Notes under the pieces: generated by a model
What the model was told of the DNA's origin: nothing
What the model saw: the letters and a program-made list of their open reading frames with translations, nothing else
Databases searched by the model: none
Position numbers and translations under genes: made by a program
Source of the DNA: a virus
IMG/VR virus record: IMGVR_UViG_3300034072_001228
Span: 1 to 37,412 of that record
Strand: one strand, 5' to 3'
Length of the DNA: 37,412 nucleotides
Shown: positions 4,748-37,412 of the stretch, piece after piece
Position numbering within the stretch: the stretch's first letter is position 1
How the letters are laid out: each line of letters opens with the position of its first letter

Positions 4748-6522
4748 TTGGAAAGCCGCACGGGGATGACGATTCCCCGCTCCCATGTCGGGTGGCCCAC
4801 GACATTCTTGGACTGGACGGTGTAGACATTGGTGCCGTCGAGCGGCGCGGGATCGAAGAATGGCACGGTATAGGCGGTGTTGCCGCCCCCTTCGAACAGC
4901 AGATAGCCATGCTCGGCCGGCAGCAGCGCGGTGCCGTCGCCGCGCATCATGCGCAGCGACACGCGGTCATTGTCGCCGCCGGTGCGGGTTCCCACGACGG
5001 TCACCAGGAACACGGCCGTGGTGTCGGTGGCGCCGGCCGGTCGGGTGAAGGTGGTCGACAGCGAGACACCCATATAGGCGAAGTTGCGCCACACATTATC
5101 GTCGTCGCTGCCTACCGACGCCCCGAACAGGTCGAGCAGCGCGAAGTTGGACTCCGTCACCGCATTGTCCAGGATCGCCGATGTGTTGACCTGGTTCGCC
5201 GCGACCCCGCCGCCATCCTTGATCGTACTGTCCACATCATCGGCCGTGATGCTGCCCACCGGCGTGCCGCTCGGCGCGCCAAGGGTCGATCCGGCTTCAG
5301 CGGGCTGAAGGTCCTGGGCGGGCGTGCCGTCGAGATAGGCGACCTCATTGGCCAGCACGATCGCGGCCAGGTCGCCGCGCGCCATGCGGCTTTCGTTGCG
5401 CCGATAGCCGAGCTTGCGGGTGGCGACCGGGCGAATGACTTTGGTGCGAGACACGTCCTCGCTGACCGCGCTGGCGACGCTCGCGCCCCAGGCCCACGGG
5501 CGGATGAGTATCTCGCCGGTCGGCGACAGCAGCCAGAGCAGCGAGACGTTCGCCATAAGCTCGTCGAGCATGGCGGCGACCGTGGTGGTTTCGTCCTTCA
5601 CTACCCAGCCCACCGGTGCCGGGCGCAGGCTGTCGGCCGCGCCGACGACACCGGCCGCGAAGGCCGGGCCGCCCAGCTCCTGGACCAGGCGCTCGGCAAT
5701 GGCGGCCGTGGTCTCGACATAGCCCGCGCCGATCTCGCCCAGGACATCGGCATGCAAGTCGCCCGAGGGTTCGGTCCACCATTTGATGCTGGCGATCGAC
5801 GGGCAGACGATGCCGCCGCCCGCTGGCGCGACCGCCGCCTGGAGCGCGGCCAGCGTATCTTCGGCGGTTCCAGCCCAGGCCATGAAGGTCAATTCACCGG
5901 CCGGCGATCCACGATCGCGCACCGCGCTGATCGCTTGCAGGGGGCGGCGCGGATCGGCGAGGCAATAGATATTGTTGGCAGGGTCCATCGGCTCGGCCTG
6001 ACGGTTCCACACCCGACCGAACAGCCGGTGCTTGAGCTTGTCTTCCCAGTCTTCCGGGCCTTCCAGCCCGCCGGTGCCGAGGTAGCGATCCTTGAGCAGC
6101 GGCTTTTTGAGGTCGGCGGCTGGGTCGGCGAGCGCGATCGACAGCTTGCCTTCAGCCGTGCTGATCTCCAGAACCTTGCCCTGGACGAGTAGCGGCGGCA
6201 GCGTGCCGGCCGCGTCTTCGGGACCAGCCCGCAGGATGATCGGCGCATCCGGCCAGAAATAGCCGGCCAGATTGGCGAGCACGGCCTGGCGACCAGGCGC
6301 ATAGCTGATCGTTGCATTTTCCGGGACCGTGCCGCCCGAGATTTCCCCATCATAGTCGATCGTCGCGCTGATCGTGGGCAGCGCGACGATCCCCGCGCGC
6401 CAATGCTCGCCGCCATAATGATAGGGCCGCGCGCCGCCGCCGCCCGCCAGGCGCACGATCGTCAGCGCGCCATCGGCCACGGCGCGCAGGTGGATTTCCG
6501 CAAGGATGATCGTTGCCGCCAT
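4744..6522 (-). CDS. Large distal tail / baseplate hub-like protein
   Basis: A 592-aa protein directly after the tape measure, overlapping its stop by one base. The position is that of a distal tail or hub protein in siphoviruses. Residues 1-200 are beta-rich (ALTIVRLAGG, ISATIDYDGEISGG); the middle (about 200-400) reads like a hub with repeated AAIAERLVQELGG and LDELMANVSLLWLLSPTGEILI stretches; the C-terminal 150 residues, after a Gly/Ala/Pro linker near 410-435, look like a beta-sandwich. I see no enzymatic motif. The exact role (hub, or tip attachment protein) is inferred from gene order. Confidence 0.65.
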   Translation of the reverse strand: MAATIILAEIHLRAVADGALTIVRLAGGGGARPYHYGGEHWRAGIVALPTISATIDYDGEISGGTVPENATISYAPGRQAVLANLAGYFWPDAPIILRAGPEDAAGTLPPLLVQGKVLEISTAEGKLSIALADPAADLKKPLLKDRYLGTGGLEGPEDWEDKLKHRLFGRVWNRQAEPMDPANNIYCLADPRRPLQAISAVRDRGSPAGELTFMAWAGTAEDTLAALQAAVAPAGGGIVCPSIASIKWWTEPSGDLHADVLGEIGAGYVETTAAIAERLVQELGGPAFAAGVVGAADSLRPAPVGWVVKDETTTVAAMLDELMANVSLLWLLSPTGEILIRPWAWGASVASAVSEDVSRTKVIRPVATRKLGYRRNESRMARGDLAAIVLANEVAYLDGTPAQDLQPAEAGSTLGAPSGTPVGSITADDVDSTIKDGGGVAANQVNTSAILDNAVTESNFALLDLFGASVGSDDDNVWRNFAYMGVSLSTTFTRPAGATDTTAVFLVTVVGTRTGGDNDRVSLRMMRGDGTALLPAEHGYLLFEGGGNTAYTVPFFDPAPLDGTNVYTVQSKNVVGHPTWERGIVIPVRLSK

Positions 6523-9500
6523 CAGCTGTTCCTCGCCAGCGCGGCCGAGTTGAGGCCGGTGGCGCTCGCCACCACGCCCTGACTTTTCGCAACCAGTTCA
6601 CGCAGCAGAGCGATGACCTCTGCATTCTGGTCGTTATTTTCGTCCAGTGCCTGGTTCGTGGTCGCCAGCGCCGGATCGCTGCTGGTCGTTCCGCCCGATG
6701 CCGCCGTGATCTGGGCATTGGCCGCCGCGATCGCCTTGCGGGCCTCGTCCAGGATCATCGCGCGATCGGCCGCATATTGCGCCGTCGAGCCATAGGCATC
6801 CTTCGAAACCGTATTGAGCTGTTCGAACAGGCTGGCCAGCGTATCCGACGCGCCATCCTTGCCCGCCGCCAGGTCCGCCTTGGCCTGCTCGATCTCGGCC
6901 AGGATCGCGTCGCGCTGCTCCAGCGCCGTGCCCTCGAACAGCGACCCGCTGGTCATTTCGTCGACCAGGCGCTGGAGACTCCCGACCTGCTCTTCCAGCA
7001 GGCTTTCGACCAGGGCGGCGCGATCTTCCGCGTTCTTCTTCTCGATCGCGGCCACATCGAACCCATATTGGGTGGCGATGCGCACGCGTTCCTTCGCGGT
7101 CGCCTCGAACGACTTGAACTCGTTGGCGATCTCGGCCCCAAGCCCGCCCATCAGCGTCTCGATCTCCGAAACCTTCAGCGCCTCCTCCAGCGCCTTGTCC
7201 AGGTCGGGCGAGGATTTGAGCGCCTTGTTGACGGCCGCTGAAAGGCCTGTGACAGCCCCTTGGGAAACCGCCAGCTGGATCGCATAGGCGATCGCGCCTT
7301 CCTGATCGTCGTCAAATTCCTTGGCGCCCTTCGCCACCTTCAGCGAGCCGGTGCCGGTGCGCACGCGCCAGTCGCCATGGCGTTGACCGATGGTGACGTT
7401 GAACGAACCGATCGCGCCGCCCAGCTGCTCGGCGATCGACGACAAACCATCCTGGACCGACCCGGCCGCGCCCGAGGCGGCGGCCTTGAACTGGCTGCTG
7501 TTGCCGCTCAGCGTGGCGTCGTCGGTGACGTTGGTGATGTTGGCGGCGCCGGTTTTGGTCTTCTTGAGCAGGCCGCCGATCGCGCCGCCCAACAGCCCGC
7601 CCGCGATCGCGCCGATCGGTCCTGCAAACTGGCCAAGCGACCCCAGCGCCGAACCCAGCAATTCCTTGCCCACCGCGCCGCCGATCGCACCGCCGATCGC
7701 GCCGCCCGTCTTGCTGCCGGTCAGACTGCCCGCCGCATAGCCCAGGCCAGCATTTTGCAGCGTCTTGCCGAACGATCCCTTGGAGCCGAACACCTTGTCC
7801 AGCGATCCTTCCAGCGACTTGCTGACCGACTTGCCGATCGCGTCGGCGGCAACGCCCTGCGCACTGGCGCTGGCGCCGCCGGTCGACGGCAGGGATGCGC
7901 CGTTCAGCATCGCGGCCAGCGGGCCAGTGCCGAACAGCGTCGCCTGGATCGCGGCGGCGGCGATCGTCTCGGCCAGGCGGCCGATCACGTCGCTCGCCTT
8001 CTGCCCGCCGACCGCGATCGCGGCGAACGCATCCACGGCCATATTGCCCAGCTGCTCCTGGGCGCGGCGCGCTTCCTCGGTGGCGCGCGCCACTTCCTGG
8101 GTGGCGTTCTTCTCGGCGAGCGCGCCCGCGATCCGCGCCTCGGCTGCCGCCCGTTCCTCGGGCGACAGCGCGGCCAGCTGCTGGCGATAATTGAGCAGTT
8201 CGCGCTGGACCGGGTTGAGGACTCCCAGCGCGGCGGCTTCGTCGTTGATCGACTGGACGATCTTGTCGATCGCGCCCGAGGCGTCGATCGCGGCCTGCTC
8301 CTGCGCGGCCATGTCCTTGATGCCCGACACGTCGAGCGACTTGCTAAGATAAGCGGCGCTTGCCTGGGCGCGATAATTGGCGGCGTCGTCGGCGCTGATC
8401 TTGCCCGCGTCCTTGAGCTTGGCGATCCGCTCCAGTTCTTCGGCATAGTCGGCCGCCGCTTTGCGCGCGGGATCATAGCGACCGATCACGCCTTCCAGAT
8501 CAGCCTTCAGCTTCTTGGTCGCCTCGGCCGCCGCGCGATCGGCAGCGCTGGCCGCGCTGCGCGTGCTGGACAGCGACTTGCCACTGGCGCTGGCCTTCTT
8601 TTCGGCCTCGCTGACCGCGTCCAGGGCGGCTTTGCGCTCATTGTCCAATTTGATCTTTTGCCTGGAGTACTCGGCTTCGCTCAGGTCTTCTCGACGACGA
8701 TCAAGGCTAAACAAGCTCCGGTCATAGTTGAGATTTACTCGCGCACGCGGGTCGGTAGCGGCAGCAATTCCACGGTCCACAAAGGGACGGCGTTTGGCAA
8801 GAACCTCCTTCTCCCTATCCGCTAGGTCGCTCTCCGCCGCAGCCAGTTCTTTCCGCAGGTCAGCTACCGCAGCGTTTGCACTCATCAGCGCGGCTTGCTG
8901 AATAGCCTGACCCGGTCCTGCTGGCGACCAGCTGGGAGTTTTCTTTTGCTCCGCGATCGCCGTTTCCAACAATGCCTTGCGAGATTTGACTGCCTCAATC
9001 GCAAGGGTGCGGTGCGCCTCGGCATTGGCGAGAGCGGCCATTTCGGACGCATATTGGGTCTTAATTTCCCTCGCGAGCGCATCGTTCAATGCGTCGATCT
9101 GTTCGGTCAGGGAAGCTGCGGCATCTTCCTGCTGCCCCAGGGCATCGCTACCGCTCAACGCCTCGGCGGCGAAGCCGGACAGAAAACCGATGACGGCGGT
9201 CAGCGCCAGAGACAGGCCGCCGGTTAGGATCGCTTCCACCGTCGCGGCGGATACGCCGAACCCGCTCATGGCGGTGGCGGCGACACCGCTGGCCTTGGCG
9301 ATCGCGCCCTGGGCGGCCGAGGACTCCAGTGCGCCCTTGGCCATGTCGCCAAGCTTGCCTTCCAGCTCGCCGGCGAGCTTGGAGGATTCCTTGGTGGCGC
9401 CGCCCATATTGTCGAGCGCACCGTCCAGGCCGAGCGCGCCGCTGATCGCGTCCTTGATGGCGCCGCTAGCGTCAGACAGGATGCTGCCCAGGAACCCGGC

Positions 9501-9809
9501 ATCCTTGCCCGCATTGCGCGCGCCAGTGCCGATATCATCCAGGGCGCCGCCCAGCGCCTCGCTGGTGCCGGCCGCATCGGCCGCGCTGCCGGCGATGTCG
9601 CCGATCGCGCCGTCCAGCGCGCCGATCGCACCGGCCGCATCCTCGGCGCTGTCGGCAATGCCATCGACCGCCTTGCCCATCGCGTCGGCGGGCGCGGTCG
9701 TATCGGCGGCGGCCTTGCCTGCCTTGTTGACCGCATCGGTGAGCGCATCCACCGCCGCCTTGGCGGTGGCGCTGTCGCCGGTAATGATCAGGGATGTCTT
9801 GAAGCTCAT
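6522..9809 (-). CDS. Tape measure protein
   Basis: At 1095 aa this is the longest ORF and lies directly after the tail chaperone frames, as expected. It starts MSFKTSLIITGDSATAKAAV, a common opening for these proteins, then has long Ala/Asp/Lys-rich helical and coiled-coil stretches. Gly/Ala-rich hydrophobic segments occur near 185-215 and 690-770 (GGAIGGAIGGAVG and similar), typical of tape measure membrane segments. It sets tail length and probably helps DNA pass the inner membrane. If the usual ratio of about 1.5 angstroms per residue holds, the tail would be about 160 nm; that is inference. No peptidase motif was seen. Confidence 0.9.
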   Translation of the reverse strand: MSFKTSLIITGDSATAKAAVDALTDAVNKAGKAAADTTAPADAMGKAVDGIADSAEDAAGAIGALDGAIGDIAGSAADAAGTSEALGGALDDIGTGARNAGKDAGFLGSILSDASGAIKDAISGALGLDGALDNMGGATKESSKLAGELEGKLGDMAKGALESSAAQGAIAKASGVAATAMSGFGVSAATVEAILTGGLSLALTAVIGFLSGFAAEALSGSDALGQQEDAAASLTEQIDALNDALAREIKTQYASEMAALANAEAHRTLAIEAVKSRKALLETAIAEQKKTPSWSPAGPGQAIQQAALMSANAAVADLRKELAAAESDLADREKEVLAKRRPFVDRGIAAATDPRARVNLNYDRSLFSLDRRREDLSEAEYSRQKIKLDNERKAALDAVSEAEKKASASGKSLSSTRSAASAADRAAAEATKKLKADLEGVIGRYDPARKAAADYAEELERIAKLKDAGKISADDAANYRAQASAAYLSKSLDVSGIKDMAAQEQAAIDASGAIDKIVQSINDEAAALGVLNPVQRELLNYRQQLAALSPEERAAAEARIAGALAEKNATQEVARATEEARRAQEQLGNMAVDAFAAIAVGGQKASDVIGRLAETIAAAAIQATLFGTGPLAAMLNGASLPSTGGASASAQGVAADAIGKSVSKSLEGSLDKVFGSKGSFGKTLQNAGLGYAAGSLTGSKTGGAIGGAIGGAVGKELLGSALGSLGQFAGPIGAIAGGLLGGAIGGLLKKTKTGAANITNVTDDATLSGNSSQFKAAASGAAGSVQDGLSSIAEQLGGAIGSFNVTIGQRHGDWRVRTGTGSLKVAKGAKEFDDDQEGAIAYAIQLAVSQGAVTGLSAAVNKALKSSPDLDKALEEALKVSEIETLMGGLGAEIANEFKSFEATAKERVRIATQYGFDVAAIEKKNAEDRAALVESLLEEQVGSLQRLVDEMTSGSLFEGTALEQRDAILAEIEQAKADLAAGKDGASDTLASLFEQLNTVSKDAYGSTAQYAADRAMILDEARKAIAAANAQITAASGGTTSSDPALATTNQALDENNDQNAEVIALLRELVAKSQGVVASATGLNSAALARNS

Positions 9810-9816
9810 CGCCGCG

Positions 9817-10173
9817 TCACCCGCGATAGCCGTTGAGGGTGGCGCGCGCGGCGCTCTCCATCACGCGCAGCCAGGCCCACTGGACCGGCGACACGGCGAT
9901 CCCTGCTTGCTTCAGCCCGGCCCGCACGCGCGCATAGTCCAGCCCCTGCCAATAGATATGGCCGGACGGCATGGCGATCATCTGCCACTGGTTGCTGATC
10001 GCAAGGAAGGCCGTGACGATGGGCATATTCTGGGGCCAGACCGGGAATCCCGGCTCCTCTTTCGACAAATCTTCGATCGCTTCGGCGGGGAGGTCCCATG
10101 CCTCAGCATCGGCGGCGGCTTCGGTAAGGTCGGAGGAGCCGCCACGCGCCCAGTGGCGCGCGGCGTCCTTCAG
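9817..10173 (-). CDS. Tail chaperone second frame (DUF1799-like), made by -1 frameshift
   Basis: This frame is open from the frameshift site at 10173 to the stop at 9817 (118 codons) and is in the -1 frame relative to the chaperone gene. It has no convincing start of its own: the first possible start is a TTG at 10068 after 35 open codons. The C-terminal part (PVWPQNMPIVTAFLAI, then GLDYARVRAGLKQAG) resembles the DUF1799 family found before tape measure genes. Reading through gives a fusion of about 227 aa (109 plus 118), as with lambda G and GT. The fusion should bind the tape measure protein and load tail tube subunits. The frame continuity was checked codon by codon near the shift. Confidence 0.8.
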   Translation of the reverse strand: MKDAARHWARGGSSDLTEAAADAEAWDLPAEAIEDLSKEEPGFPVWPQNMPIVTAFLAISNQWQMIAMPSGHIYWQGLDYARVRAGLKQAGIAVSPVQWAWLRVMESAARATLNGYRG

Positions 10174-10179
10174 TTTCCC
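10140..10179 (-). promoter_or_regulatory. -1 programmed ribosomal frameshift signal
   Basis: On the minus strand the chaperone gene ends GGG GGA AAC TGA. The heptamer G GGA AAC (10179-10173) is a canonical X XXY YYZ slippery site placed right before the stop. Seven bases later begins an 11-bp stem (10165-10155 with 10150-10140, one G-U pair) closed by the tetraloop ACTG (10154-10151). After a -1 shift the next codon is CTG at 10173-10171, in frame with the 9817 ORF. All three classic elements (slippery site, spacer, hairpin) are thus present in the exact place where long-tailed phages use them. Confidence 0.85.
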
Positions 10180-10499
10180 CCCTGCGCGCCCGCGACCGCC
10201 TCGAAATAGGTGCGGGCCAAAGCCTTGCGGACATAGAGCTGGCCAAGCAGCGTATCGCGCAGCTCATCGCTGTAGCTGATGGTCTCGCCATCCTTGTCGA
10301 CCAGGTCGGACATATGGGTCACGGCGCGCTGCAAGAATTCCTTCGATCCCTCGCCGCCGCCAAGATCATATTGGCTGACCTCGCTGGTCGGGATGACGTT
10401 GAAGGTCGCCTTGAAACTCTGATCCTTGAAGCCCCCGTCGACGGGGACCTTAACTTTGACGACATGAGTAAAGGTGGGATTGGGATCGACGACGAACAT
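10170..10499 (-). CDS. Tail assembly chaperone (G-like)
   Basis: A 109-aa protein between the tail tube gene and the tape measure gene, the usual place for the tail assembly chaperone. It opens MFVVDPNPTFTHVVKVKVPVDGG, then a beta-rich half and a helical half (DELRDTLLGQLYVRKALARTYFEAV). A GAGGA-type ribosome site lies about 10 bases before the ATG. Its last codons form the slippery sequence described at 10140-10179, so most ribosomes should make this short form and a minority the long fusion. It is not a virion protein in the lambda model. Confidence 0.8.
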   Translation of the reverse strand: MFVVDPNPTFTHVVKVKVPVDGGFKDQSFKATFNVIPTSEVSQYDLGGGEGSKEFLQRAVTHMSDLVDKDGETISYSDELRDTLLGQLYVRKALARTYFEAVAGAQGGN

Positions 10500-10625: not shown

Positions 10626-11582
10626 TCAGGTGATCGTGATTTTCCACTGGTCGTTGCCGGCGGTCGGCAGCGGCACGAATGTCAGCGGCCATTCCTCGAC
10701 TTTCTGATTTTCCTGGCTGCCGGCGAAGCGGCCCTGGACACAGGCATTGGCCTGGATGTCGACGATGCGGCCCGCGATCGTGCCATGCTTCACTTCGATC
10801 GGAACGCGCGGCGGCTCGGCAGTGATCGATCCGGCGCGCTCCACCGGGTTGTAGGTGGTGAACGGCACGGCCTCGACCGTCATCGAAATGCTCTCGGCCT
10901 TGTCGACGATCAGCACACGTTCCTGGTTGAACAGCATGCGCGTCTGGACATCGCAGCCGAGGTTAAGGCTGAAGTCCAGGCCGACGAACGGGATGCCGTC
11001 GATCGTGTAGACCGGCGTGGTCGCCTTGCTGGCGGCCTGGGGCTTCTGCCATTTGGACAGGTCCACGGTCGGGCGAACCGCCACAGCCGGGATCGTGAAC
11101 AGGCCGGTGATGGTGACGCGCAGGACGGGAATCCCCGCCGCGTTGACGGTGATCGTGCCGGTCGCCCTGCCGCCCAGCAGCACATAGCGATTGGTGCCGA
11201 TCATGAAATAGGCGGCGACGCTCTCCTGCCCATCGGTGATCGGCGTATATTCGACCTTCTCGCCCACGGTCAGGACTTCGGCCGCGCCGCAGGCACGGAT
11301 CAGCGGCGACCAGGCCGGCGCGACGCCGAGCGTGCCGCTGCCCACCAGTTCAACGTCGCCGGTCAGAACGCAATAGAGGCCGACGTTGATGCTTTCCTGG
11401 GCGCCCTGATAGGGCAGCTCCAGATTGCGGCTGACTTCCTGCCCTTCCATCGGTTGGAACTGGACATTAGTCATCAGCATCGCGTTCGCCGCGCCGGTCG
11501 GCGTGGGATCGACACCATAGGCATTGAGCGGTTCAGCCTTGATCAGGATGATCTTGCTGTTCCAGCGAATAGGTTCGGCCAC
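10626..11582 (-). CDS. Phage tail tube protein
   Basis: A 318-aa protein with the pattern of siphovirus-type tail tube proteins found in Mu-like phages with non-contractile tails: MAEPIRWNSKIILIKAE at the start, an early YGVDPTPTGAANAML segment (the ETTYGTDPTP-like opening), and a long run of beta strands. It ends in a domain with SITAEPPRVPIEVKHG and PLTFVPLP strands. It is followed by the two-frame chaperone and tape measure, which confirms the tail role. There is no tail sheath gene near it, so the tail is probably non-contractile. Confidence 0.85.
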   Translation of the reverse strand: MAEPIRWNSKIILIKAEPLNAYGVDPTPTGAANAMLMTNVQFQPMEGQEVSRNLELPYQGAQESINVGLYCVLTGDVELVGSGTLGVAPAWSPLIRACGAAEVLTVGEKVEYTPITDGQESVAAYFMIGTNRYVLLGGRATGTITVNAAGIPVLRVTITGLFTIPAVAVRPTVDLSKWQKPQAASKATTPVYTIDGIPFVGLDFSLNLGCDVQTRMLFNQERVLIVDKAESISMTVEAVPFTTYNPVERAGSITAEPPRVPIEVKHGTIAGRIVDIQANACVQGRFAGSQENQKVEEWPLTFVPLPTAGNDQWKITIT

Positions 11583-16215: not shown

Positions 16216-17502
16216 TCAGCGGCGTTGGGTCGCGGCTCCGCTTCCACCTTTCCCGATACGAACATACATGGTCACTAGCGCCACCGTGCGCCGGCCGCGC
16301 CGGATCACGAAAGTGGCGACATAGGTTTGGCCGCCGATCCGCTTCACGAAATTGACCAACTGATCCCCGTCCTTCGACGTGCCGCCCGGCTCTATCGCGT
16401 CGGGCCGGGCGATGATCTGGGGCAGCATCGCGAAATCGTCCGGCACGATAGCCCGTTGCCCGCGCGGCGCTTCGGTGGCGGCGCTGCCATGCGCGGCGCG
16501 GATATGGTCCAGATCGTGGCGCGCCAGCGAATAGTCGTAGAGATCGATCGGCGTGTCACCGGCAACGACGGCGCGGATTGCCTCTGCCTGGCGTGGCCCG
16601 ACCAGGCCGAGCGTGCGCAACGGCTCGATCGTGCCGTCGCTCTCCCCCCAGATGCGGCGTGCATAGCGGCGAGCATCATCCGCCACGGAAGGCAGCGCGC
16701 GATAGCTTTCCGCCAGGGCGTCCCGCATCGCCTCGGGCACGCTCTCCATGAAGCCCTTGCCGATGCGATAATCCCAATGCCGGATTTTCTCGGCCGAGGC
16801 CTGGACGATCGGCGCGACACTGGCGCCAGGCGCATAATCCCAATTGCGACCCGCCCCGAATGGCGCGCCCGTCTTGGGGTTGATCCGGTCCCAGCCTTCA
16901 GGAAGCTTCTTGTCCGGCTTGCCACCCAGCCGCCGCGCCTCCCGCTCACTGCGGGCGCCCAGCACATAGCAGCTGCATCCCCAGTCCGAGGGCGGGTAGA
17001 AGATTTTCCAGAATGGGTGGTCGGGCGGCAGGCATAGGCCGTCAAAATCGAGATGCTCCTGGCGCGGCTCCTTCGATCCGCCATGGAAGTAGATCCAGAT
17101 CGGATAATCGTCCGCGACCAGCTGGGCATAGCGGCCGGCAGAATAGCTGGTCGATGCGTTGGTCTTGTAGATGGTGCGGGTCCGCCAGGCGCGGCCGCCT
17201 TTCGTGTCCTCGCCGGTCCAGCCATGCCAGCCATGACGCTCGACGATCGCCCGGAAGTCCTTGCGGAACGCGTCCAGGCTCTTGCCCTCCGCGATCGTCC
17301 GGTCGACAGCCATGGCCAGATCGCTCAGCAGGTCCGCCTTCTGCGCGCCGGCCACCATGAAGCCGGTGTCATGCTGCTCGCGCTCCAGATCGTCCCAGAA
17401 CTGCGTCGGGACAAGATTGCCGAGCTTGCCGCGAAAGAAGGCGATCTGTTCGGTGAACGGCTGACGGAACGTGCCGGAAATGGCACTGGGCTGGCTGGGC
17501 AT
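16216..17502 (-). CDS. Mu gpF-like head morphogenesis protein with C-terminal nuclease-like domain
   Basis: About 428 aa. Residues 1-215 are Mu F/SPP1 gp7-like: RQPFTEQIAFFRGKLG, then HGWHGWTGED, RTRTIYKTNASTSYSAGRY, and DGLCLPPDHPFWKIFYPPSDWGCSCYV near 154-180, all typical. After a linker, residues about 318-420 form a separate domain: LARHDLDHIRAAHG (His329, His333, His338), RGQRAIVPDDFAMLPQII, then YVATFVIRRGRRTVALVTMY. This fits the PBECR group of BECR-fold nuclease domains known from phage polyvalent proteins. Such a domain on a packaged protein could be injected with DNA and act in the new host. Start overlaps the portal stop (TGATG). The fusion is clear; catalytic activity is inference. 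Confidence 0.82.
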   Translation of the reverse strand: MPSQPSAISGTFRQPFTEQIAFFRGKLGNLVPTQFWDDLEREQHDTGFMVAGAQKADLLSDLAMAVDRTIAEGKSLDAFRKDFRAIVERHGWHGWTGEDTKGGRAWRTRTIYKTNASTSYSAGRYAQLVADDYPIWIYFHGGSKEPRQEHLDFDGLCLPPDHPFWKIFYPPSDWGCSCYVLGARSEREARRLGGKPDKKLPEGWDRINPKTGAPFGAGRNWDYAPGASVAPIVQASAEKIRHWDYRIGKGFMESVPEAMRDALAESYRALPSVADDARRYARRIWGESDGTIEPLRTLGLVGPRQAEAIRAVVAGDTPIDLYDYSLARHDLDHIRAAHGSAATEAPRGQRAIVPDDFAMLPQIIARPDAIEPGGTSKDGDQLVNFVKRIGGQTYVATFVIRRGRRTVALVTMYVRIGKGGSGAATQRR

Positions 17503-19070
17503 CAACCGCCCTCGATGTCGAACCGCCCCGCCGCGTGCGCCGCGACCAGGCCATCACCGATCTTGCCGGCCAGGCGGGCGATCGGCAGATCGGGATAGGC
17601 CGCGAGCAGCATTTCGCGGAACTCACCCAGGTCACTCGCCGCTTCCATCATCACGTCGATCTGATCGAGCAGTTCGGCCATATCTGGCGCTGTGTCGGCG
17701 ACCGTGCGATCCGCGATCGCGTCGACAGGAAAAACCGCTTTGCCCTGCGCGGCCTGGAGCGCCTGGACCAGCTTCAGCGAAGGCTGCGCAATCCGCTCAG
17801 GCGCAGCTGGCGCAGACGGCGCGCGCAGCAGTTCGGCATTGGCGTCCGGATCGGACAGGCCGAACTTGTCGCGGACTTCGCTCATCTGAACGCGCATGCC
17901 CATCGGGACAAGCTTCTCCAAGGCGTCGACCAGGCCTTTGACATCCTCCGCCTTGGGGCGGGCAATGCGAAGGCGCGGATAGGCCTTCTGCGGCCCATAT
18001 TCCAGATTGACCCAGGGGCGGATCAGGTCCCGGTTCAGCGTCGCGGCGAGCGCTTTGCAATCGGCCGTCTCGATATCTTCGCGAACATCGCCATGGACCT
18101 TATTGCCGCCGTCACCCAGCCCGCCCTGCTTGGTGTCGGTAGTGCCGGTCTGGCCCAACACCGCCTTGCTCATCTGGCGATCAAGCCAATCCGACCGCCG
18201 CTCGTAAAGGTCGCTGCCCGACGCGACATTCTTGCTCTCGATAAACTCGATGGACATGCCCTCGGGCACGATCGCCGCGCAGTCGCCCGCGATATTGGCT
18301 ACCGCGCGGAACAGGGTCGCCTTGTCCGCATCGCTCGCGCCCGACCGGAATTTACCGATGCGCACCGGCTGTCCATAGGTCTGGGTGAAGATCGCCCAGT
18401 CGCGCTGGGTGAAGGCCTTGAACATCCATGCCCAGGCCGCGATGCGCGCCAGGCCCGATCGCACCGGCAGACCAGACTTGGCCTTGACGGTGTGGCGGAT
18501 GAATTTGAACGGCGGCAGCGGACAATCCGGGCTGTTGCCGTCCTCGCCACCCCGCAGCAACGGCGTCCGCCCGTCCAGCCGGTCATAGCTGAACCAGCGC
18601 GGATCACGCCATTCCAGGCGCAGCGGCTCCCACTGTCCACTGCTGGTGTCCCAGATGATTTCGGTGAAGGCATCACCCTTGCCGACGCCGTCGAGAATAT
18701 CGAAAGTTTCGTCGGCCAGTTCATCGCGATCGATCCAGCGGCGGATGCGATCGGCGATCTCCACATCGAGCGGATTATCGCTGGCGGCATCGACAGTCAC
18801 ATCGATCTGCGCGACCGACCGTTTGCGAGTCCCCAATATGCCCAGATAATGGAGGTCGCGTTCCTCGATCTGCTCGGCCAGTTCGAAATAGGCCAGCGGA
18901 TCGCCCATGTCGGCAGCGCGCAGCAGTCGCGCCAGGCGCACCGGATTGAGGCCATCGGCGGGATAGCCGGTGTTGGGCGAACGCACGCCCGCCAGGGTCG
19001 GCCCTGCGACATCGCGCGTCATGACCTCTTTGCGGAGCGGTTGCCCCCGATGATCGACCAACACGGTCAT
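17502..19070 (-). CDS. Portal protein (DUF935, Mu gp29-like)
   Basis: A 522-aa protein with DUF935 hallmarks: NPVRLARLLRAADMGDPLAYFELAEQ, HYLGILGTRKRSVAQ, a central WAWMFKAFTQRDWAIFTQTYGQP segment, and a KAVLGQTGTTD segment. It forms the dodecameric vertex portal through which DNA enters and leaves. The ATG at 19070 overlaps the terminase stop (ATGA) and has AGGAG 8 bases upstream; an ATG at 19076 is too close to that site. The C-terminal 100 residues are Ala/Asp-rich and helical. Confidence 0.93.
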   Translation of the reverse strand: MTVLVDHRGQPLRKEVMTRDVAGPTLAGVRSPNTGYPADGLNPVRLARLLRAADMGDPLAYFELAEQIEERDLHYLGILGTRKRSVAQIDVTVDAASDNPLDVEIADRIRRWIDRDELADETFDILDGVGKGDAFTEIIWDTSSGQWEPLRLEWRDPRWFSYDRLDGRTPLLRGGEDGNSPDCPLPPFKFIRHTVKAKSGLPVRSGLARIAAWAWMFKAFTQRDWAIFTQTYGQPVRIGKFRSGASDADKATLFRAVANIAGDCAAIVPEGMSIEFIESKNVASGSDLYERRSDWLDRQMSKAVLGQTGTTDTKQGGLGDGGNKVHGDVREDIETADCKALAATLNRDLIRPWVNLEYGPQKAYPRLRIARPKAEDVKGLVDALEKLVPMGMRVQMSEVRDKFGLSDPDANAELLRAPSAPAAPERIAQPSLKLVQALQAAQGKAVFPVDAIADRTVADTAPDMAELLDQIDVMMEAASDLGEFREMLLAAYPDLPIARLAGKIGDGLVAAHAAGRFDIEGG

Positions 19071-36675: not shown

Positions 36676-36705
36676 ACTATCCCGCACAATCCCGGACTAT
36701 CCCGC
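36676..36705. repeat. Three tandem 10-bp repeats at the rpoN 3' end
   Basis: ACTATCCCGC, ACAATCCCGG and ACTATCCCGC follow each other without gap. They overlap the last codons of the rpoN reading frame; as ten is not a multiple of three, the repeats are unlikely to have arisen as protein code. A TTGAAAGG word is also repeated next to them on the minus strand. Confidence 0.5.
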
Positions 36706-37412
36706 CTTTCAACCCCTCCTGTCCCCTTTCAAGCGCCTTTTGCCGGCGGCGCTGGACCGAGGAGCCGATGCCCATGGATTCGCGATATTTGGCGACGGTG
36801 CGGCGGGCGATGTCCATGCCCTTGGCGCGCAGCAGGTCGACCAGCGTGTCGTCGGAGAGGATGGCATGGGCCTCCTCCGCGCCGATCAGCGCCTTGATAT
36901 GGCTCTTGACCGCCTCGGCCGAGACGGCGCCGTCGCCATCCGCCGCCGCGACGCCGCTGGTGAAGAAATATTTGAGTTCGTAGAGGCCGCGCGGGCAGGA
37001 GAGATATTTGTTCGAAGTGACGCGGCTGACGGTCGATTCATGCATCTCGATCGCGTCGGCGACCGCGCGCAGCGTCAGCGGCTTGAGATAAGCGACGCCG
37101 TTGCGGAAGAAATCCTCCTGCTGGCGGACGATCTCGCTCGCGACCTTGATGATCGTCTTCTGCCGCTGGTCGAGCGCCTTCACCAGCCAGTTGGCGCTGG
37201 CGAGGCAGTCGGCCAGCCAGGCCTTGCTCGCCTTGTCCTGCGGGCCGCCGGCCAGTTCGACATAATAGGTGCGGTTGACCAGCACGCGCGGCAGCGTGGC
37301 GCTGTTGACCTCTATACCCCAGCCTTCGCGGGTACGGCTGACGAACAGGTCGGGCGTGACCGGCGTCGCGCTGTCGCTGGCGAAGCGCAGGCCGGGCTTG
37401 GGATCATAGCCG
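36677..37412 (-). CDS. rpoN: RNA polymerase sigma-54 factor, C-terminal part (runs off the window)
   Basis: Only the C-terminal 244 residues are in the window; the gene continues beyond the right edge. The core-binding domain (QRQKTIIKVASEIVRQQEDF), the HTH (LRAVADAIEMHESTVSRVTS) and the RpoN box ARRTVAKYRE (36779-36808), which reads the -24 promoter element, are all present. After SSVQRRRQKAL the frame continues for about 18 residues (ERGQEGLKGGIVRDCAG), longer than usual, and through the tandem decamers. This tail may be natural or may have been created when the prophage inserted nearby. In related bacteria hpf and ptsN often follow rpoN; here the phage lies in between. Confidence 0.93.
   Translation of the reverse strand, partial: GYDPKPGLRFASDSATPVTPDLFVSRTREGWGIEVNSATLPRVLVNRTYYVELAGGPQDKASKAWLADCLASANWLVKALDQRQKTIIKVASEIVRQQEDFFRNGVAYLKPLTLRAVADAIEMHESTVSRVTSNKYLSCPRGLYELKYFFTSGVAAADGDGAVSAEAVKSHIKALIGAEEAHAILSDDTLVDLLRAKGMDIARRTVAKYRESMGIGSSVQRRRQKALERGQEGLKGGIVRDCAG

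Follow-up and report, generated by a model that had tools for sequence, protein, structure and literature searches.

The stretch of DNA analysed here (hereafter the window; 37,412 nucleotides, the whole of IMG/VR virus record IMGVR_UViG_3300034072_001228) comes from a Mu-like phage and has a GC content of 64%. A gene for a tail assembly chaperone ends in it on a slippery heptamer, which raises the question of whether this gene is extended by a programmed -1 ribosomal frameshift into the overlapping frame. The whole feature lies on the minus strand, which the first-pass annotation omitted while locating it at the right coordinates. ORF A (10170..10499, minus strand, 109 aa, C-terminus ...AQGGN-stop), which is lambda G-like, closes with the heptamer G GGA AAC (GGGAAAC, 10179..10173), and the frame-0 stop TGA (10172..10170) directly abuts it. 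The 7-nt spacer TGAAGGA (10172..10166) is followed by an 11-bp stem containing one G-U pair, in which the 5' arm CGCCGCGCGCC (10165..10155) and the 3' arm GGCGCGTGGCG (10150..10140) enclose the 4-nt loop ACTG (10154..10151). The order on the minus strand, 5' to 3', is ...GCGCAGGG GGGAAAC TGA AGGA CGCCGCGCGCC ACTG GGCGCGTGGCG..., all of these elements being on that strand. RNAfold adds four further base pairs (10169-10166 with 10137-10134) below a 2-nt bulge, and the stem-loop including this lower extension spans 10134..10169. At the junction, frame 0 reads CAG GGG GGA AAC TGA and frame -1 reads GGG AAA CTG AAG GAC. The latter is open for 118 codons, from the CTG at 10173 to a stop at 9817 (ORF B, 9817..10173, starting LKDAARHW...), and encodes a DUF1799, lambda T-like extension, so that the predicted A-DUF1799 fusion has 227 aa. 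The figures first given for the end of the chaperone gene, the spacer, the stem, the loop, the open -1 frame and a fusion of about 227 aa were all reproduced.

Taken as a single sequence, this architecture must be interpreted cautiously. Counted over both strands, the window contains 46 heptamers of the XXX[AAA/TTT]Z type, a frequency of about 6e-4 per position. To meet one by chance in frame and exactly against this stop is thus improbable, though not decisive alone; at this GC content, the heptamer and hairpin by themselves would amount to weak evidence. The hairpin was not significant against dinucleotide shuffles of its sequence (z -0.71), owing to the high GC content of the region. When the shuffles retained the -1-frame protein and its codon usage, it reached z -2.97 (p 0.015). 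A Shine-Dalgarno (SD)-like stimulator is absent from the window, and the search of Rfam returned sRNA matches only, all sub-threshold. We regard the single-sequence case for a frameshift signal as only fair, and it is the conservation among relatives that leaves no reasonable doubt about the signal.

The two frames encode proteins with recognisable families. ORF A matches the tail family phrog_569 (E=5e-13), which also includes gp15 of HK578, and scores 13.6 bits (E=0.079) against PF08748 (Phage_TAC_4), below the cutoff of 21.1 bits. Its relatives match PF08748 down to 1.6e-29, with 85-103 bits for HK578, HK639 and YMC11 and 22.3 bits for a protein of phage RC1 that is 40% identical to ORF A and itself above the cutoff. 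ORF A is thus a distant relative of the PF08748 family, not a scored member, in agreement with its initial identification as a tail chaperone. ORF B matches PF08809 (DUF1799) with 40.9 bits (E=2.4e-10), above the 26-bit cutoff, as well as phrog_680, which bears out its description as DUF1799-like. The AlphaFold models have a pLDDT of 94.3 for B and 89.7 for A, and neither predicted fold has a match in the PDB; in BFVD, the predicted fold of B matches, with modest scores, fused 'tape measure chaperones', including those of Salmonella phage Shivani and Escherichia phage K1H. DUF1799 also gave weak matches to ribosomal protein L20.

In the genome, the chaperone and DUF1799 frames lie, in that order, between the genes for the tail tube protein and the tape measure. 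The preceding gene (10626..11582, minus strand; phrog_290, E=1e-11, named minor tail protein) may encode the tube or major tail protein, a role assigned by position only from the lambda order V-G-T-H. The next gene (6522..9809, minus strand) encodes a tape measure protein of 1095 aa (phrog_10574, E=3e-9), located as in lambda. Elsewhere in the window, a Mu F-like head protein (16219-17505, minus strand) has at its C-terminus a domain of the PBECR3 nuclease-like kind (residues 324-416, E=3e-12), a toxin-type domain here fused to a virion protein. At the right edge, past the MuA/MuB genes, a sigma-54 DNA-binding domain (PF04552, E=6e-67; 36680-37285, minus strand) is encoded; because of this position it is probably host flank, and the record may include a prophage end.

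Related junctions were gathered by DUF1799 similarity and not by slip site, from IMG/VR, GTDB contigs, annotated phages and a profile search of whole genomes, the last of these built around Ruegeria and Variovorax genomes to which loci had led. We tabulated 154 junctions, of which 115 were non-redundant after removing those above 75% identity; by construction the table holds heptamer-bearing loci only, and loci lacking a heptamer were followed separately. In the tabulated relatives, X XXY YYZ is correctly phased where A meets B, as GGGAAAC in 72 of the non-redundant loci, AAAAAAC in 42 and AAAAAAT in one. In the whole-genome sample obtained by profile only, the heptamer is present in 32 of 35 loci, and the other three have no intact chaperone ORF A upstream. 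It is kept down to less than 30% protein identity. In the GGGAAAC loci, GGA makes up 12% of the glycine codons, yet it is invariant at the slip site; the terminal asparagine, encoded by the AAC of the heptamer, is the sole invariant residue in 38 A proteins with a mean column identity of 33%. At the only AAAAAAT junction (locus L162), the DUF1799 domain is preceded by a repeated insert of the QENCL type, about 60 residues long.

The hairpin shows the same tendency across the family. For the first 14 codons past the junction leucine, the 115 loci gave a mean z of -1.69 (se 0.15) against synonymous shuffles, half of them at p<0.05, whereas three windows further downstream gave -0.37, -0.37 and -0.13. 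The best stem begins a median of 6 nt after the heptamer. In the 20 closer relatives, the stem of the window is 83.6% paired, compared with 36-62% when slid. One clear C-G to G-C exchange was observed in these relatives (columns 21 and 34), while the number of doubly changed stem pairs was not above that of shuffles, so covariation lends the putative stem modest support. An SD-like element occurs in 22% of the family against 14% in shuffles; given this slight enrichment and its absence from the window, we rejected it as a required element. The comparison of heptamer and stem among relatives that the first-pass annotation had proposed thus came out in its favour, with 115 non-redundant junctions bearing the heptamer and a hairpin signal that is family-wide.

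The loci without the heptamer fall outside this pattern in different ways. L127, L137/L149, L146 and L181 look like remnants, and no intact A lies upstream in L146, L149 and L181. Two of these, L146 and L149, are DUF1799 copies about 1 kb apart in a gammaproteobacterial MAG (G004:C5:188651-189864), both without a heptamer and without a recognisable chaperone ORF. L090 was initially a candidate for this group and was rejected, as it carries AAAAAAC TGA, together with an in-frame stop further into B. The intact relatives lacking the heptamer are the T1-like phages KLB16, Mingus, Sushi and VAC70, which have TCA AAG, CAA AAG or GCA AAA one codon before the usual site, with one sense codon separating the slip codon from the stop; these junctions are consistent with an A_AAR slip. 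The chaperone genes of KLB16, Mingus and Webervirus (L153, L187, L191, L194) have lost the heptamer and have A_AAR two codons ahead of a TAA stop, and a change of slip-site type from heptamer to A_AAR within one family is possible. The case that would speak against a frameshift, loss of the heptamer together with a clear start for the second frame, was not found among the relatives, the four T1-like phages keeping A_AAR near the stop.

Frameshifting in tail chaperone genes is a classical trait of phages (Xu, 2004, as described in papers citing it). Records of RcapMu, Stevie, Sushi and Smarc2 already mark a frameshift in the PF08748-DUF1799 family; therefore, this kind of frameshift was already known. 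A close parallel in layout is the Mu-like siphovirus RcapMu of Rhodobacter (genes 49/50), which has GGGAAAC TGA at the junction and encodes DUF1799 in the -1 frame. Its record includes a feature named 'potential -1 frameshift', B still being a separate CDS; in contrast to the window, RcapMu has a near-perfect SD-like GGAGG upstream. In the T1-like phages (Drexlerviridae) Stevie, Sushi and TLS (TfmS/TfmB), the chaperone is likewise joined to a DUF1799-like part by a -1 frameshift, annotated as a join and described for Stevie as a conserved translational frameshift (PMC4319613). In this T1-like group the junction is AAAAAAC TAA instead of the GGGAAAC TGA of the window, and Webervirus, KLB16 and Mingus differ further in having the A_AAR tetramer one codon earlier. 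In the open-access literature searched, one paper gives DUF1799 by name, with no mention of a frameshift. The haloarchaeal viruses HCTV-1 and HCTV-2 have G_GGA_AAC and A_AAA_AAC slip sites in their g-t genes, a likeness in the slip site, here in archaeal viruses (PMC5009743).

The lambda G/GT system, invoked as the underlying principle from the outset, shares with the window the gene order, the G GGA AA. slip site and, as predicted here, the -1 shift and a chaperone accompanied by a rare fusion. The window has an X XXY YYZ near the end of the upstream ORF, a -1 frame that continues into a second, conserved domain, a location between the major tail protein (a role given by position) and the tape measure, and a slip site and structure conserved in relatives. 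Nevertheless, hhalign profile comparison with lambda G and T gave probabilities of 0.1 and 0.6 percent, hence no detectable homology, and the lambda principle is therefore an analogy; the architecture, the gene order and the existing records sustain it, while common descent and the abutting stop do not form part of it. The lambda slip site ends in AAG (GGGAAAG), unlike the AAC of the window, and is separated from its stop by five codons. AAC is found in phages of E. coli and other enterobacteria too, which weakens the idea that it replaces AAG owing to the host tRNA-Lys(CUU).

From these data, a programmed -1 ribosomal frameshift very probably yields both the 109-aa chaperone and the 227-aa A-DUF1799 fusion, one message giving two products in a set ratio. 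Most ribosomes would terminate at the TGA (10172-10170) and release chaperone A, and a minority, kept on the slip site by the hairpin about 7 nt past the heptamer, would slip by -1 on G GGA AAC, read GGG AAA CTG AAG and produce the fusion. By analogy with lambda, where the roles of chaperone and fusion are described (PMC5009743), A would coat the tape measure protein and the DUF1799 part of the rare fusion would recruit the tail tube protein, both products presumably being absent from the virion. Some observations count against a frameshift: the dinucleotide test of the hairpin, the missing SD-like stimulator, the sub-cutoff Pfam score of A and AAC as the second slip codon, which is weak in E. 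coli, where A_AAA_AAG is much shiftier than A_AAA_AAC (PMC5009743).

The alternative that survives best retains the frameshift and makes the abutting stop a working part of it: slippage would mostly follow translocation, at a point when the E and P sites hold the slippery codons and the A site holds the UGA. If so, RF2 would compete with the shift, and this competition would set the ratio of chaperone to fusion. A frame-0 stop stands directly behind the heptamer in 105 of the 115 relatives (TGA 83, TAA 16, TAG 6), whereas 49.4 (sd 4.5) are expected from the -1-frame residues and the codon usage of each locus, an expectation in which codon usage is approximate, as the loci are short, and in which the sd understates the uncertainty and the counts overstate independence, as the sequences are related. 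The excess is greatest where the residue after the junction leucine could avoid a stop, with stops in 21 of 25 loci with arginine (3.1 expected) and in all five with glutamate (0.18 expected); therefore, the stop itself appears to be maintained in the relatives. The contrast with the five codons of lambda, and with SEA-PHAGES joins, which average 26 nt (PMC10885494), points in the same direction, as do the natural immediate stops in RSV and BYDV (PMC4373837). In E. coli, according to the account in PMC4373837 of Horsfield (1995), shifting at the HIV slip site fell when a stop was placed immediately behind it and was abolished by additional RF2. However, ten of the 115 relatives have a sense codon at this position, the enterobacterial phages mostly have TAA, which is generally efficient and not weak, and the stop may merely fix the C-terminus of the chaperone. 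The conservation of the abutting stop is thus suggestive, though no proof, of a shift efficiency set by termination at the next codon, and we consider this version possible but unlikely.

The existence of a ribosomal frameshift, with or without a working stop, has two much weaker competitors. It is very improbable that ORF B is a separate gene, started at TTG 10068 or by reinitiation at the CUG overlapping the stop, with the heptamer as a leftover. Such a TTG does exist at codon 37 of the -1 frame, and several records annotate B alone, as in phages RC1 and RS1 (L007, L008), whose DUF1799 starts from the CTG at the C TGA overlap of slip site and stop; yet this TTG has only a weak SD-like sequence upstream and sits at the domain edge, which upholds the original remark that the second ORF has no good start. 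In addition, 39 of 114 B frames have no ATG, GTG or TTG ahead of the DUF1799 domain and only 19 of 114 have a start with an SD-like 4-mer, the junction codon varies among CTG, CTA and CTC, and the heptamer persists to the low protein identity given above. The CTG start in RC1 and RS1 would then be an annotation artefact, and a DUF1799 ORF annotated alone a misannotation, as first proposed. Slippage of RNA polymerase, for which the G6 run of the window (CAGGGGGGAAAC) and the A6 of the AAAAAAC loci might serve, is still more improbable, as most GGGAAAC relatives have just G3 A3, shorter than the runs on which transcriptional slippage is known (An, n>7; PMC3711429), and the conservation of hairpin and stop position accords with slippage by the ribosome.

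Therefore, the frameshift signal as observed is confirmed and its interpretation as a programmed ribosomal frameshift is supported, the near-universal abutting stop being the part worth a bench test. This corrects a systematic misannotation, in which DUF1799 is usually called a separate gene, often as 'tape measure', as hypothetical or with a CTG or TTG start, whereas it would be the -1-frame half of a tail chaperone. The heptamer with its abutting stop provides a simple rule for locating the junction in new phages, and the near-invariant stop offers a natural, easily cloned test of termination versus -1 slippage in bacteria; in the open-access literature, we found no description of an invariant X XXA AAC with an abutting stop. 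More tentatively still, the PF08748-DUF1799 chaperones of phages of Alpha-, Beta- and Gammaproteobacteria might form a class with a termination-coupled -1 frameshift, in which the release factor and E/P-site slippage would compete to tune the stoichiometry of the two products. If true, this class would represent, naturally and in bacteria, what has been built artificially in constructs that combine the HIV slip site with a stop.
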